Virus record (IMG/VR): IMGVR_UViG_3300032073_004529
Span: 1-42,529 of that record
DNA: 42,529 nucleotides
Reading direction: 5' to 3' (one strand)
DNA from: a virus
The notes below the pieces were generated by a model that did no database searches, had not been told where the DNA came from, and saw only the letters and a program-made list of their open reading frames with translations. Below are positions 468 through 42,529 of the stretch, piece by piece. Each line of letters starts with the position of its first letter. Positions within the stretch are counted from its first letter, which is position 1. A program made the position numbers and the translations under genes.

Positions 468-3350
468 TTATTTTATTATAAAAGACATTATGTAATTAGA
501 TGGCGACATATTTTTTGACTTTGCTTCAGTATAGTGTATCCTATTAAGTTTGTCATATGCATTTATAGCACTTGCTGAATTGTTTTTACCGCTAATATAC
601 TCTTTATATAATGCTTTCATCTCTCCTCCTGATTGTTTATATTGCAATACATTAAAGTATTTGCTATTATTTTTAACCCCTTTCGTATAAGTAGATCTTC
701 CGCCTTCTGTTTCACCGGCCCAAAACGTTGGCATAGTTTCTATGAAATCTAATGATTTATCATATTTTCTATTTTTTAGAAGAAAAGCCAATCTTCCCAT
801 AGTAGCAACAGCTGCTTTTTCTGGTCTTAATAAATCAGAATTATCTGTTACTCCTAGTTTCATTATTTTTTTAAGCAGATCACCTTCTTTCATATTTTTC
901 CATCTTAATTGTGTTAATCCTACTGAATGATCATCTCTATTAGCTCCGTATGTTGAATATTTACTTTTGTAATCTGGACCGCTTGATGAATAACCAGCTA
1001 ATTTACCAAAGCCTTTTTTAACAGCTCTTGCTAAATCGCCAACACTAGAATGTTCATCTCCAAATGCTGTTTCATTACCTAGTATACCCATAGCTACAGG
1101 CACCAGGTCATTATACTGATCACTTGTTATATTAAATGCATCCATTATTTTTTTCTTGCTATCTTCTAATGCTTCTACATAGGGCAATACTATTTCATTA
1201 TACCTCCTTTCATCTTTTTCTTTTAAAAATAAATTTTTGTCTACGTCTATTTTAATAGGTTTGTAATTCTTATTCCCTGGAGTTCTGTTAATTCCTTGAC
1301 CTCTTTGTATATTCCCATTTTTATCTTCATATATATCATATTGCAGATCAACAGCTTTTTTATCAAGCTCATCATACACCCCACCAATATTCTTTAATAA
1401 AGAAAATTTCTTGTTGTTTTTATCACTAATATACCATTTGTCGTCTTTCTTTTTATAAATTCTTTTCCCGTCTTCATATTTATAAAACTTTTTTCTATCC
1501 TTATTTTTAAAATACAGCTTATCATCCTTTACATAAAATTTATTTTGATTTTCTTCAGGCAAGATGAATACTTCACTACCTCCTTTTAATGTAGAGTATA
1601 ATTTTTCCACAGCACCTTTTGTACATCTTATACAACCATTTGACACCCTTTTTTTATCATCTGAAACATATCCTGAATGTATTGATGTTGAAACACGTTC
1701 AATCTTACCAGTTTTATTAAACTCATTAAACTGTTGTTCATTCATCATGTTAAAGGAAGGAAGCCCATTATACCCTTCCTTTCTTAAATTTGATATGTAA
1801 AATTTACCAGCACCTGTTGTTTTGTTTCCAGCATTCCAATCTACTTTATACCTGTTTTTAACTTTATCTTCTTTTGTTATGATCCCATCTTTATTAACGT
1901 CTTTAGTCTTAGTAGTAGTTTGGCCATCTCCAAAATTTGCACCAATGTCAATTGGGTATGCAGCATAAGGCTTATCACTTTTAGGGTGGTACAAATGCAT
2001 TAACCCGGTAGATTTGTCAACAACAACATAATCTGACTTAGCTTTATTTTTTTGATAGTTAACAACTATTTTAGCATTATCCATTCTGTTAATATCTTTT
2101 TGCCTTTGTTTTACATCTTTCCATAATTCCAACTCTCCAAAATCATCCTTTTGCTCTTTAAGGTATTCTTCTTTAGTAAAAGCAGTAGGTAGCGCATCTT
2201 TTTTAAGTTTCTTTTCTAAACCTGTAGATGTAGATATGGACTCTGTATTAAAATTATCTTGAGAAGTATATGGGCTAACTATGATTTCATTCTGTTTTTG
2301 TATATTTTTCTTATTCTTTTTCTTATTCATTCCCCATTTAGTAAGCTCTTCTTCTGAAGGTTCAAATGGCTCTCCACTTCTATTGGTATTTTTTAAATGC
2401 CCCTTATGCCTAAATATTTTATTAGGCCCATACATTTCCCTGGCTTTTCCAAACGCTTCATTAAATGTAAGATTGTCAAAATTATATTCTGATTGCTGTT
2501 GCGTTTGTTGAGTTTGTTTTTTTACTGTTGGTTTAACAGTGGGCTGTACCGTAGGCTGTACTGTAGGTTGTACTGTAGGTTGTTGTGATTGCTGAAATAA
2601 CTTTTGCTGTAAAGCTAGATTACCTTTATATGTGCCATCAGTTAAGCCTTGTTTTTTTGCTTCTGCCCAAGGTTTACCCGTCACTCTTTGCCAGGTTTCA
2701 TAAGCTTTTTCTCCACCTTTTTGTTTTTTAAAAGCAGGAGATACACGCTTGTAATTTTCAGCAGCAAAGTATTCAGCGTCTTTTGGATTGTCAAAATACA
2801 AAGCATTTTTAAAGCCTTGGTTTTTATGATATTCAAATATTTCATCAAAGTCACCATTGTTAGATATTCTTTTTAAAGTATTACCTTCTTGAACAATGTT
2901 AGGTAATACATAATTTCCAAAACTAGCTAACTCATGAGATCCATGCATATCATACCCTTCTGAATCTTGACCTAAAAACAAAGAAGGAGAATCTTCTTTA
3001 GAAAGTGTAAGCCTTTTTACAAAAGGAATATGAGAATTTCTTGCTATGGCATTTTTCATCATTGTATCTTTTAACTCTGCACCTTCTTGTGCTACAGGTA
3101 TTTCCATAACCATATTACCAGGAAACTGATATTCATAACCAGGAAACATCATTTGTTGATTACCCATGTTATCTATACCAAGCAAAGGACCTTTCTGTAA
3201 AGCACCGCCATTTTGTTCTGTCATAGTTATATTGCCACTTGGTATAATTTTATAGGGGTCATTATAATTTGGCGCACCTTTTCTATACCCTTCTCCTCCT
3301 TTTTGCAACTTAGGCAAAGACTTAATTTTATATTTTTTATTAAAATTCAT
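468..3350 (-). CDS. Large virion protein with L,D-transpeptidase-like and lysozyme-like domains
   Basis: This 960-aa protein probably acts on host peptidoglycan during entry. Residues 1-100 hold short Gly-rich motifs (LPKLQKGGE, IPVAQEGAE). A tandem PTVQ linker follows near 255-275. A YkuD-type L,D-transpeptidase-like region lies at about 430-605: VVVDKSTGLMHLYHP leads to an IHSGYVSDD segment and the signature SNGCIRC near residue 570. The catalytic Cys is present, but the usual SHGC His is replaced by Asn. Inside this region a DVNKDGIITKED loop resembles an EF-hand calcium loop. A lysozyme or lytic-transglycosylase-like domain follows at about 745-880, with GILGNETAFG supplying the candidate catalytic Glu and SVGLTQLRW matching the downstream signature. 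The start overlaps the end of the 1393-aa gene by 11 bases, which suggests translational coupling. Domain calls rest on motifs; the activities are inferred. Confidence 0.8.
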   Translation of the reverse strand: MNFNKKYKIKSLPKLQKGGEGYRKGAPNYNDPYKIIPSGNITMTEQNGGALQKGPLLGIDNMGNQQMMFPGYEYQFPGNMVMEIPVAQEGAELKDTMMKNAIARNSHIPFVKRLTLSKEDSPSLFLGQDSEGYDMHGSHELASFGNYVLPNIVQEGNTLKRISNNGDFDEIFEYHKNQGFKNALYFDNPKDAEYFAAENYKRVSPAFKKQKGGEKAYETWQRVTGKPWAEAKKQGLTDGTYKGNLALQQKLFQQSQQPTVQPTVQPTVQPTVKPTVKKQTQQTQQQSEYNFDNLTFNEAFGKAREMYGPNKIFRHKGHLKNTNRSGEPFEPSEEELTKWGMNKKKNKKNIQKQNEIIVSPYTSQDNFNTESISTSTGLEKKLKKDALPTAFTKEEYLKEQKDDFGELELWKDVKQRQKDINRMDNAKIVVNYQKNKAKSDYVVVDKSTGLMHLYHPKSDKPYAAYPIDIGANFGDGQTTTKTKDVNKDGIITKEDKVKNRYKVDWNAGNKTTGAGKFYISNLRKEGYNGLPSFNMMNEQQFNEFNKTGKIERVSTSIHSGYVSDDKKRVSNGCIRCTKGAVEKLYSTLKGGSEVFILPEENQNKFYVKDDKLYFKNKDRKKFYKYEDGKRIYKKKDDKWYISDKNNKKFSLLKNIGGVYDELDKKAVDLQYDIYEDKNGNIQRGQGINRTPGNKNYKPIKIDVDKNLFLKEKDERRYNEIVLPYVEALEDSKKKIMDAFNITSDQYNDLVPVAMGILGNETAFGDEHSSVGDLARAVKKGFGKLAGYSSSGPDYKSKYSTYGANRDDHSVGLTQLRWKNMKEGDLLKKIMKLGVTDNSDLLRPEKAAVATMGRLAFLLKNRKYDKSLDFIETMPTFWAGETEGGRSTYTKGVKNNSKYFNVLQYKQSGGEMKALYKEYISGKNNSASAINAYDKLNRIHYTEAKSKNMSPSNYIMSFIIK
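2524..2583 (-). repeat. Five tandem 12-bp units encoding a PTV(Q/K) linker
   Basis: Five adjacent 12-bp units can be read directly; the last two are identical on the plus strand (ACTGTAGGTTGT). On the coding strand they give QPTVQPTVQPTV and then KPTV. They form a Pro/Thr/Val linker flanked by Gln-rich sequence, between the N-terminal region and the L,D-transpeptidase-like domain of the 960-aa protein. Copy number is likely to vary by slippage. Confidence 0.9.
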
Positions 3351-39582: not shown

Positions 39583-39659
39583 AAAAAACAGGCTGACATT
39601 AAAGAATCATCAAACACTTGATATATTAAATAATTAAGTTAATGTCTAACCTGTTTTAT
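39583..39659 (-). terminator. Intrinsic terminator after the amidase gene
   Basis: On the minus strand AAAACAGGTTAGACATTAA folds with TTAATGTCAGCCTGTTTT across a 36-base AT-rich interior, with mismatches in the middle. A run of T follows the second arm (TTTTTTAAGG). The first arm overlaps the amidase stop codon. It ends the lysis-gene transcript and insulates the packaging operon. Confidence 0.75.
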
Positions 39660-40585
39660 TTTATACTCATAATTACATCCACCAATCTAGGATCTGGATA
39701 GCAATCACTCTTATCTTTTCTAACATTTGTATGCGTCAGCAATCCCTGGACCTTACCATAATATGCATCCTCCTGAAAACCAAAAGCCTTTGTAGGACCA
39801 AACTTCTTAATCCACTGCTTCAACCCAAGCCTCATATCTATCTGCTCCTTCTCCCCGACATACTTTATCCACTTCTCTATCTCCTCTATCTGCCGATCAC
39901 TGTACCTATGCCAATACAATTTGTTCTTAAATGGCTCCGCCAACTTTATAACCTGACTTGCCAAACACTTACTATTAACATACGTCATATAATTACTGTC
40001 CAAATAGCCCATAGAACATATCTCTATTCCTACACTAGCCTTGTTCATTGCCCCGCTGCCCGTCTTACCCAAATGATATGCATACCCATTGTCAGGAAAA
40101 GCCTTCACCATAACCCCATCATTGTCAGTGTTACCACTTGTGTGACTCTGTCCCCCCAACACATACTCAGTGCCAACACGCCCCCGGTCATCCCTACCCC
40201 AACTATCTACAACCTTATATGGATTCTCCCTCCCAGCAGTATGATGCAAAAAAGCATGACGCAACTGTGGCTTATTACCCCTGTCAACATACTCTCCCTT
40301 AGGTAAATAATACCTCTCTATAATCTGGCCATAATCTGTTTTTATAACATTATTATTATTGTCCAAATCTACCTCCTCTACCTTACCCTTGTGCACAATC
40401 AACATCTGCCAAGTGTCCGAACCAACTATACCATCTGGCATTATATTGTAATTCATCTGAAACCTCTTTACAGAACTCTCCGTCAAAGGACCAAAATCCC
40501 CATCCATAGTAACCCCAAGTAACTTCTGTAAATTCTTAACGTCCTGACCCTTGTCACCCCTCTTTAATAACTTCATCTGATCCAT
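39656..40585 (-). CDS. N-acetylmuramoyl-L-alanine amidase endolysin
   Basis: This 309-aa protein cleaves the bond between muramic acid and the peptide stem. An N-terminal peptidoglycan-binding domain at about 6-62 contains DGDFGPLTESSVKRFQ and DGIVGSDTWQML. An amidase type 2 domain follows from about 105. The zinc ligands are probably His114 or His115 in FLHHTAG, His285 in LLTHTNVR and Cys295 in SDCYPDP. VGIEI at 185-189 is the usual core strand. There is no signal peptide, so release needs another pathway. It overlaps the 79-aa gene by 32 bases. Lys is nearly always AAG here, unlike in the structural genes, which prefer AAA. Confidence 0.9.
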   Translation of the reverse strand: MDQMKLLKRGDKGQDVKNLQKLLGVTMDGDFGPLTESSVKRFQMNYNIMPDGIVGSDTWQMLIVHKGKVEEVDLDNNNNVIKTDYGQIIERYYLPKGEYVDRGNKPQLRHAFLHHTAGRENPYKVVDSWGRDDRGRVGTEYVLGGQSHTSGNTDNDGVMVKAFPDNGYAYHLGKTGSGAMNKASVGIEICSMGYLDSNYMTYVNSKCLASQVIKLAEPFKNKLYWHRYSDRQIEEIEKWIKYVGEKEQIDMRLGLKQWIKKFGPTKAFGFQEDAYYGKVQGLLTHTNVRKDKSDCYPDPRLVDVIMSIK

Positions 40586-41140: not shown

Positions 41141-41382
41141 AACTACCCTTTTTCACAATATAATAAATTTATCTATACACCACAACAATTTATCCACCCC
41201 CCAACACAATCCCTATAACATACCCCTATGTGTTTGGCACTTCAGAACCACCGTGATACGTTTTGCAGGTCTCTATGTGTTTGGCACTCTGATGGGGTTT
41301 ATATTATCTACTCCCCCACTAAATTTTGCCATGTGGGTACCCCCTGCATGTGCAACATTTCTTAACCTGTAAAATTATTGCT
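41141..41382. other. Divergent intergenic region
   Basis: This 242-base stretch separates the minus-strand 93-aa gene from the plus-strand structured element. It is C-rich on the plus strand on its left side, then holds two copies of a 16-bp element, a GGGTACCC palindrome near 41336-41343 and TGCATGTGCA just after it. No gene is seen. It is the point where transcription direction switches. Confidence 0.6.
41226..41288 (+). promoter_or_regulatory. Duplicated 16-bp element with promoter-like content
   Basis: CTATGTGTTTGGCACT occurs at 41226-41241 and again, identically, at 41273-41288, offset by 47 bases. Each copy contains TTTG and TTGGCA. After the first copy, TTTG is followed by 20 bases and TACGTTTT, one base off the Bacteroidota -7 consensus. 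After the second, TATTATCT lies 18 bases downstream. The copies could be tandem promoters or operator sites for the plus-strand transcript. Confidence 0.5.
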
Positions 41383-41982
41383 ATGCAAAATTTGACAGAG
41401 GCTCTTGTAGCTTGTGCCCAGTATATCACTGGTTACAAACTACAAAAGACCAAGGCAGGTACTATCGCTCTTGCAGAGCTCAGTACCTACTTGGTTGTTG
41501 AGGAAACTTGTGAAGACGCTGACTCCGTCGGCTTCTCCACAAGCGGTTCCTCACAAATCCCCTTGGTGGAAGGCCTCCCACCTATGCGGGGATTATTTGC
41601 AGTAAAGTGCAAGAGAACAAACAAGCCGGTTGGCTTGCGTTCTCCTATCTTTACTGAATTTTTAGCTGTGCACGGGCTTACAGCTAAAAATTTTGCAAAA
41701 AAGCCCAACAGACTGGGAATCTACAAAGTAGATACGCCAGTTGTTGCCCTTTACCACCGTCTCTCTGAGACGCCAGTTTTGAATTCCAAAACTGGGGCTG
41801 CTTACCCCAACCTTTATAAGACACGTCCGCGTCTTAAAAAGTTTGTGGCTGCACAGCCGTGGGACGCTTACAGTGACGCTGAGCTCCTTGAACTGTCAGA
41901 ATTTAACTCCGTTAAATTAGGACGTACAAGGGCTCGCGCCAAGGTAATCGTCAAGCTTGAGCTTGCCGGTGTTCACCCTTAG
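41383..41982 (+). CDS. Orphan protein encoded within a hairpin-dense RNA
   Basis: From ATG 41383 this plus-strand gene encodes 199 aa, starting MQNLTEALVACAQYITGYKL. A further in-frame ATG at 41326 would add 19 residues, including an unlikely His/Cys stretch. The sequence looks protein-like: a helical start, a middle with SPIFTEFLAVHG, then DAYSDAELLELSEFNSVKLG and a basic end (GRTRARAKVIVKLE). No domain is recognised. GC and codon use differ from the minus-strand genes. It is interrupted from end to end by inverted repeats, and its TAG lies in the loop of a CCGG/TCACCC hairpin. An open frame of this length by chance is improbable but not excluded. It is the only supported plus-strand gene. 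Confidence 0.55.
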   Translation: MQNLTEALVACAQYITGYKLQKTKAGTIALAELSTYLVVEETCEDADSVGFSTSGSSQIPLVEGLPPMRGLFAVKCKRTNKPVGLRSPIFTEFLAVHGLTAKNFAKKPNRLGIYKVDTPVVALYHRLSETPVLNSKTGAAYPNLYKTRPRLKKFVAAQPWDAYSDAELLELSEFNSVKLGRTRARAKVIVKLELAGVHP

Positions 41983-42498
41983 GGTGACCCGGTAAGGCTT
42001 AGGCCTTTTAAAGGGTTCACTATGTCCGCCCATAGCTACTTGCTTCCATAAGTACGTAAGCAATTGCTTTGGGTGGGCTTGCGGTCACCATAACCTCTTG
42101 AGAATGAGAGTAGTGGCAACTACATTACTGTAGTACGTGAACCCTTTAATTTTACTGTATCTGGCTTTCATATGTTTTGCCAAGGACTGAAAAAACATAT
42201 AGAAACAGAATAATGTTCTGTGAATACTTGTGCAAGTGCCAAGATTTACGGGGGTTATACCAAATGTATTGGTATAAGCACAAAATATTGTTCTGTTTGA
42301 ACAAAAAATATGCACGTTTGTGTCTCTAAGTGGGTGTAAAGCACACTAGGGGATTATCATACTTTAAAAACGTGTAATTTTCAACCAGCTATGACGTATG
42401 GATATAGCTAATAAATTGAAAGTAGGGCTTTCAGGGGAAATAATAGTAACTCTAACAACGGAGGAGAGAGCTAATGTATATAGAGATATATGTATTAG
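41404..42498 (+). ncRNA. Putative large structured RNA element
   Basis: More than fifteen local inverted repeats occur back to back on this strand. Examples are TTGTAG/CTACAA with inner TTGT/ACAA and CCAG/CTGG (41405-41445); AGGTACT/AGTACCT (41457-41488); GAGAAC/GTTCTC around CAAGCC/GGCTTG (41613-41644); a 13-bp stem AATTTTTAGCTGT (41657-41692); ATCTAC/GTAGAT inside ACTGG/CCAGT (41712-41741); CCAGTTTTG/CAAAACTGG (41773... to 41795); AATTTAAC/GTTAAATT (41900-41918); ATATGTTTT/AAAACATAT (42170-42200); TTATACC/GGTATAA (42255-42277); TTTCAA+AGCTAT (42379-42421). Small symmetric internal loops recur. The part after 41982 has no convincing gene. Family unknown; strand inferred from the ORF. Confidence 0.6.
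42008..42149 (+). repeat. 13-bp closing stem of a multibranched RNA domain
   Basis: TTAAAGGGTTCAC (42008-42020) is the perfect complement of GTGAACCCTTTAA (42137-42149). Between them lie TATG/CATA (42021-42034), TTGCTT/AAGCAA (42040-42063) and ACTACA/TGTAGT (42119-42134). This makes a likely multi-helix junction, just after the ORF stop. Confidence 0.75.
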
Positions 42499-42529
42499 TA
42501 TATATAGTTGTTTAGATAGATGGTCTATT

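Follow-up and report, generated by a model that had tools for sequence, protein, structure and literature searches.

Known structured RNAs and messages

Several known systems come close to the locus that we describe here. GOLLD and ROOL are large RNAs of phage-related genomes that are non-coding and have a conserved, covarying architecture. Obelisks are about 1 kb long, have an ORF of about 200 aa and are about 70% paired on both strands (PMC13096302). A survey of coding sequences estimated structural selection in 2–3% of cellular ORFs; among viruses it was highest in RNA viruses and lowest in DNA viruses (PMC6544989). In phage T4, gp32 binds the unstructured A+U-rich leader of the gene 32 mRNA (PMC3014915). 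In crAss001 the earliest genes make up an operon of their own, located at an end of the linear genome, and for a related phage there are indications of transcription by an injected virion RNA polymerase (PMC8375218).

We analyzed a stretch of 42,529 nucleotides, IMG/VR record IMGVR_UViG_3300032073_004529, which we call the window. Near its end, a 199-aa gene and the untranslated sequence after it fold into a dense chain of hairpins. Like GOLLD and ROOL this would be a large structured RNA in a phage-related genome, but it is coding and has no match in Rfam. With obelisks it shares the length, the size of the ORF and the paired fraction on both strands. It differs from them in that its hairpins are local and do not form a rod, it is embedded in a phage genome, it has a phage-specific block on its 5’ side, and it has no Oblin motif. 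Compared with the cases in the survey of coding sequences, the signal is confined to one gene and its 3’ untranslated region at one locus in a clade of dsDNA phages, and it is extremely strong. The likeness to T4 gene 32 consists of a phage gene, a product that on modeling probably binds single strands, and an A/U-rich, UUAA-containing unstructured leader at the ribosome site. Here, however, hairpins pack the coding region itself and the protein is not a sequence homolog; we draw the likeness without a T4-type pseudoknot, and autoregulation would be by analogy.

That coding sequences can be selected for structure is known; what is new is so extreme a case in the coding mRNA of a dsDNA phage. 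Selection for the folding of whole messages is mostly discussed for RNA viruses. In this dsDNA phage, one gene is written into hairpins to a degree far beyond any other gene on its contig, and in a widespread group of aquatic phages it is again this gene that is affected. In the literature that we searched we did not find a clade-wide, locus-specific and extreme case in dsDNA phages.

Genomic setting of the hairpin region

The contig is part of a crAss-like phage, which bears out the setting proposed in the preliminary description of this DNA. Genes for the muzzle, portal, large terminase, major head protein and endolysin are all on the minus strand. The muzzle matches crAss_MUZ (E 1e-24), and portal, TerL and major head protein lie in the same collinear block, the gene content by which Crassvirales are recognized. 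The structural gene block also encodes a 960-aa protein with an L,D-transpeptidase (YkuD) domain (468–3350). The endolysin gene (39656–40585) has a third-position GC of 45%, compared to mostly 13–25% in the other large genes, which suggests a recent acquisition or an unusual codon constraint.

The hairpin region starts just past the divergent intergenic region. Its ORF (41383–41982, plus strand, 199 aa) opens the divergently transcribed unit, some 4.5 kb upstream of the terminase; in related phages, the gene at this position likewise runs opposite to the terminase gene and lies about 4.5 kb from its start. Judged by codon usage, no other frame is a better candidate for coding; GC at third positions is 45% in it and mostly 13–25% in other genes. 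Synonymous shuffling, synteny, a shared upstream block and a short profile match also bear on the assignment of the ORF, and are described below. We looked in the window for an alternative frame or a frameshifted member of the family found in relatives, and found neither. A short A/U-rich leader without structure (41345–41382, plus strand) precedes the start codon.

Strength and extent of the fold

Folding of 41360–42350 gave -395.8 kcal/mol, compared to -276.3 +/- 8.4 for 20 dinucleotide shuffles (z = -14.2), and none of the shuffles was as good. In 160-nt windows over 41290–42409, z was between -3.7 and -7, with the exception of 42090–42249 (z -2.3), and in the rest of the window such windows had a mean z of -0.3 (sd 1.25). 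The preliminary description, made from the letters alone, had reported dense hairpins far above the rest of the window, and this was correct. It had also named the energy relative to dinucleotide-shuffled controls in advance as a test on which a selected fold would stand or fall; the result was strongly in favor of the fold, as it was with synonymous recodings.

In sliding windows the excess folding sets in between 41290 and 41370 and has ended by about 42400. Folding energies and span-limited folds together place the chain of hairpins, which covers the ORF and a 3’ untranslated region, at 41367–42382 on the plus strand, with its start about 16 nt 5’ of the ATG at 41383. Both of the earlier limits, 41404–42498, move: the last ~120 nt (42390–42498) have no structure (z -0.1 for 42330–42489), and the structure continues for about 400 nt past the stop codon, not the 500 first proposed. 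The 200 nt upstream of the transcription unit fold in an ordinary way.

The minimum free energy structure is a chain of local hairpins, which is practically unchanged with or without a limit on span, as had been described from the letters, and it is unlike a rod. With a maximum span of 120–160 nt, about 73% of bases are paired in the ORF (12 local hairpins) and about 63% in the 3’ part (9 hairpins). Hairpin loops are compact, at 3–4 nt. Perfect stems of up to 13 bp had been reported, and we found the 13-bp stem at 42008–42020 / 42137–42149. A scan for the density of perfect stems followed A+T content too closely to be informative. Over the coding part, the minus strand is structured as strongly as the plus strand, which the preliminary description had missed.

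To separate folding from the protein and its codons, we compared the ORF with 40 synonymous shuffles that keep the same protein and the same codon counts. The ORF folds at -236 kcal/mol and the shuffles at -153 +/- 8 (z = -10). Per 100 nt the excess is -12.6 kcal here, and has a mean of -0.9 (sd 1.75) in 131 other coding chunks of the window. Among long genes, the capsid gene has the strongest mild excess (-2.8 kcal per 100 nt), as it should have if abundant messages gain from folding.

Rfam covariance models (GOLLD, ROOL, group I/II introns and others) gave no match at the gathering score in the window and eight related loci, except for one tRNA. This agrees with the first impression that the fold was none of GOLLD, ROOL or a group I/II intron.

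Folding across related phages

A terminase search gave us 80 related contigs, all of which went through an unbiased local-folding scan. The window ranked second. Other top loci included L075, L051, L004, L008, L050 and L024/L023, and in these the over-folded stretches lie upstream of the terminase. The genes at this position belong to a family of ~110 aa (fam113) or a family of ~98 aa (fam98). Over 32 syntenic genes from the two protein families, folding was on average -6.6 kcal per 100 nt beyond shuffles, compared to -1.5 in 212 chunks of those contigs that served as controls (Mann-Whitney P = 1.3e-14; GC-adjusted P = 5e-14). Synonymous shuffles of ten relatives gave z between -3.6 and -8.7. 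Another 57 fam113 loci tend to over-folding, in the gene as well as in the 400 nt that follow. The window is the extreme of this range.

Because a heavily folded gene of the same kind stands at this genome position in related phages, we conclude that the folding is selected, beyond what the protein and the codon composition account for. The preliminary description spoke of a selected RNA fold. Selection is supported; the RNA level is likely, and for the coding half no more than likely.

Upstream block and 3’ end

A promoter-like block, TATGTGTTTGGCAC ... CTACTCCCCCACTAAATTTTG (41308–41328) ... GTGGGTACCCCC, occupies 41273–41344 on the plus strand and could be aligned across 66 genes at this locus. 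Its left half is duplicated, and the first copy of CTATGTGTTTGGCACT is at 41226–41241 (plus strand), an exact 16-nt direct repeat that resembles the consensus TATGTGTTTTGCAT. The arrangement TATGTGTTTTGCAT ... CTGCTCCCCAGCTAAAnTTTG ... GGGGTACCCCC upstream of the gene is common to the fam113 loci, the fam98 loci and the window. It matches once in the window and never in shuffles. In 1.04 Mb of related loci, the core of the block has 62 matches, every one on the strand of this gene, and in nine phage records (76–118 kb) the block is present in eight, with one or two copies each in a single small cluster. The leaders of the gene at this locus have a mean of 83% A+T, and 59 of the 66 contain TTAA.

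We read the block as a putative promoter because TAAATTTTG resembles the Bacteroidota -7 box, TAnnTTTG. Alternatively, the block may be part of a virion polymerase system. As an element that is specific to one locus, it could help to find how crAss-like phages start transcription.

The block also bears on what kind of object this is. A region of ~1 kb with a ~200-aa ORF, ~70% pairing and no database match could be thought to come from a chimeric contig or an integrated RNA replicon, such as an obelisk-like element or a piece of a ssRNA phage. We consider this scarcely credible: the block that joins the element to the phage is conserved at the same place in many independent phage contigs, the fold is local and not a rod, and the GYxDxG motif of Oblin-1 is absent from the translated window ORF (some obelisk clades have no such motif either). 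Since the block is shared, the window’s unrelated-looking ORF belongs to the same locus, and we set aside a chimera or inserted replicon. An obelisk is ruled out by the local hairpins, the phage contig and the adjoining block conserved in other phages. A free-standing RNA or a known RNA family is ruled out by the syntenic gene, the conserved upstream block and the lack of an Rfam match. What had first been described as a structured RNA in or beside a crAss-like phage is not a separate element; it is the unit from which a normal phage gene is transcribed, a gene that is syntenic in relatives and has a conserved block on its 5’ side.

At the other end of the unit, a terminator-like hairpin with a GTGTAAnAGC loop lies within 120 nt of the stop codon in 26 of 54 relatives (median 22 nt). 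The background of this loop motif is 0.0125 per kb. In the window, its sole plus-strand site is at 42334, the far end of the structured 3’ region, in a hairpin at 42331–42352 with the loop GTGTAAAGC. This is the apparent counterpart of the relatives’ terminator hairpin, and it has no clear T run. Because the motif stands so far 3’, the unit appears to have grown in the window, in both its protein and its untranslated part, by hairpin-forming sequence. At the 3’ edge of the structured region, CCAGCTATGACGTATGG (42385–42401, plus strand) is tentatively a degenerate second copy of the block, judged by eye against CCCCAGCTATAGCACGTTATG in relatives.

Encoded proteins

At the sensitivity that we used, the window ORF had no homologs in Pfam, PHROGs, phage and plasmid records (tblastn), IMG/VR or GTDB. 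It has in common with fam113 a 20-residue C-terminal motif, LSETPVLNSKTGAAYPNLY (hhalign P 0.002–0.003), and a multiple alignment with fam113 suggested wider similarity. The AlphaFold model of the window protein is confident only at residues 124–150, which is the C-terminal motif. A search with the fam113 profile did not place the window ORF above its shuffled copies, and hhalign showed no relation between it and fam98. The window protein is probably a diverged and enlarged member of fam113, on weak sequence support; we say no more than probably because the family profile does not detect the window ORF.

The fam113 protein itself is modeled well (pLDDT 93). Its top matches among solved structures are PriB, SSB and other OB folds, and these are weak (E 0.03–0.3, TM ~0.35); one viral neighbor is an uncharacterized protein of Virus NIOZ-UU157 (E 6e-9). 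Pfam SSB (PF00436) did not match in any of 40 relatives, and the window ORF has no Pfam family at all. An SSB-like role of the modeled fam113 product is plausible because none of nine phage records from relatives showed a canonical SSB domain.

Level of selection

Whether the fold acts as RNA or as DNA was addressed by comparing strands, base pairs and related genes. The coding part has no strand preference (mean standardized sense preference 0.11, n = 18), and at helix positions G-U is no commoner than A-C. In the 3’ untranslated part the mRNA strand is favored in four of five loci. The strand symmetry and the equal G-U and A-C are what DNA-level hairpins would give, that is, inverted repeats that extrude or fold when single-stranded, for instance where replication starts, where packaging takes place or where a virion RNA polymerase reads, with coding merely compatible. 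The compact loops, the two copies of the locus-specific block that flank the region and the several contigs that end close by would fit as well. On the other hand, the 3’ part favors the mRNA strand, the fold tracks the transcribed unit and spares the upstream block, the positions of the hairpins are not conserved as they are in known origins or packaging sites, and conserved repeats may have produced the contig ends during assembly. We consider DNA-level hairpins, the strongest competing reading, unlikely, and selection on the message is the reading that we carry forward.

The extra pairs in the ORF join third codon positions with first or second positions, more than third with third (~2 sd). 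At this level of significance, the register fits selection through synonymous sites better than blind formation of palindromes. Template switching that perfects near-palindromes could produce the hairpins as a mutational by-product without any selection, and would explain why Watson-Crick stems are near-perfect, the strands symmetric and the helices quick to turn over, and why both the protein and the 3’ region are enlarged in the window. We think this improbable given the unequal registers, the adjacent non-transcribed DNA that is spared and the recurrence in this one gene throughout a wide clade.

When related genes were compared, 5.0% of the helix pairs had changed on both sides and were still paired, compared to 2.7% in slid controls, and many others were broken. 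Individual helices turn over quickly. The preliminary description had named covariation in homologs as a further test; in the relatives (the window ORF itself does not enter this comparison) it came out weakly positive, in that pairs are restored above control, but helices mostly turn over and G-U is not preferred. Because compensation is modest and many helix pairs are broken, what is maintained is the amount of folding and not a particular architecture, which is expected of a GORS-like message. Two further marks of such messages are seen here: the folding exceeds that of sequences with the same protein and codon usage, by the synonymous shuffles given above, and the excess recurs with varying helices in homologs, in the 32 syntenic genes (the window ORF has no close homolog).

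The structure past the ORF, which we also found in L075 and L050, allows for another RNA-level reading, in which the message is translated and its folded body also works in trans, by binding or titrating a protein of the host or the phage (e.g. a nuclease, a defense sensor or a Ro/TROVE-type protein). The sense strand is favored there, and a TROVE protein is among the early genes of crAss001 (PMC8375218). However, there is no conserved architecture across the relatives and no Rfam family, the 3’ region of many relatives is no more than a short stretch with the terminator, and a TROVE domain was sought in nine related records and not found. We regard a dual-function RNA as quite unlikely.

Proposed explanation

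Our leading candidate, which we hold tentatively and somewhat short of an even chance, is a hairpin-packed early mRNA of the first divergent gene, shielded from nucleases and from the single-strand-binding protein that it would encode, with an open A/U-rich leader. The feature would be the complete mRNA of the first gene in a divergent, probably early, block of a crAss-like phage. Synonymous codons and the ~400-nt 3’ untranslated region would have been selected so that nearly all stretches pair with their neighbors, while the leader of ~45 nt that is rich in A/U would be kept open. The product, in the clade typically an OB/SSB-like protein of ~110 aa, would be needed early and in quantity, and the gene may belong to the earliest class of the crAss001 type. 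Nucleases, or a single-strand-coating protein, would find little to act on in a fully hairpinned message, so the mRNA would last and stay translatable while free protein accumulates. The leader would be the only good single-stranded site, and there the product could lower its own translation, by analogy with T4 gene 32.

In favor of the shielded message are the excess of folding over dinucleotide shuffles, synonymous recodings and the other genes of the window, with its recurrence in 32 syntenic genes; the pairing of third with first and second codon positions, as for selection through synonymous sites; a fold that ends with the transcription unit and favors the mRNA strand in its 3’ part; the well-modeled fam113 protein with PriB, SSB and OB folds as top matches in phages where nine records showed no canonical SSB; and the precedent of T4 gene 32 (PMC3014915). 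Against it, a fold of RNA only would not predict the strand symmetry of the coding part or G-U equal to A-C, compensatory change is modest, the SSB-like assignment comes from weak fold matches without sequence support, and no more than a short match (P 0.003) ties the window protein to the family.

A wider formulation, which we offer as possible and doubtful, is that the clade evolved a general nucleic-acid fold, and not a specific motif, at the first divergent gene. It would be either a hairpin-armored message, guarded against its own SSB product and nucleases, or hairpin-dense DNA read by a virion RNA polymerase, kept in two protein families, perhaps with a third in the window, where it was stretched to ~1 kb. 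Whichever applies, the gene is a natural and easily recoded test case for coding-region structure in bacteria, with regard to mRNA lifetime, protection from SSB or a role in DNA.

Further observations at the locus

In 46 related loci (e.g. L116 2824–3324), the intergenic region 3’ of the gene has a second copy of the CTGCTCCCCAGCTA block. After this copy there is conserved non-coding sequence, with TATGTGTGTGTCAC, a TGTGAGGT...ACCCACA hairpin, TATAAATATAGCTAAC and CCTCTATAGGATAATAG...CATAGTACCCGCAATAT, each about once per locus. This looks like another promoter and a structured leader or RNA with variable inserts.

Contigs often end near the gene. Fifteen of 78 fam113 contigs end within 500 nt downstream of it and six within 500 nt upstream; examples are L085–L164, L004, L023, L024, L048, L051 and the window at 42529. 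Such ends could reflect forks in the assembly where repeats are conserved, or true termini of the genome.

Some phages have two tandem copies of the ~110-aa gene that differ in sequence (L060 2719–3054 and 3512–3841; L037 1759–2094 and 2737–3066). Some relatives have tRNA genes near the locus (L131 4656–4746, L083 2826–2898, L050 362–472), and the one in L083 was called with an unusual four-base anticodon (atga).
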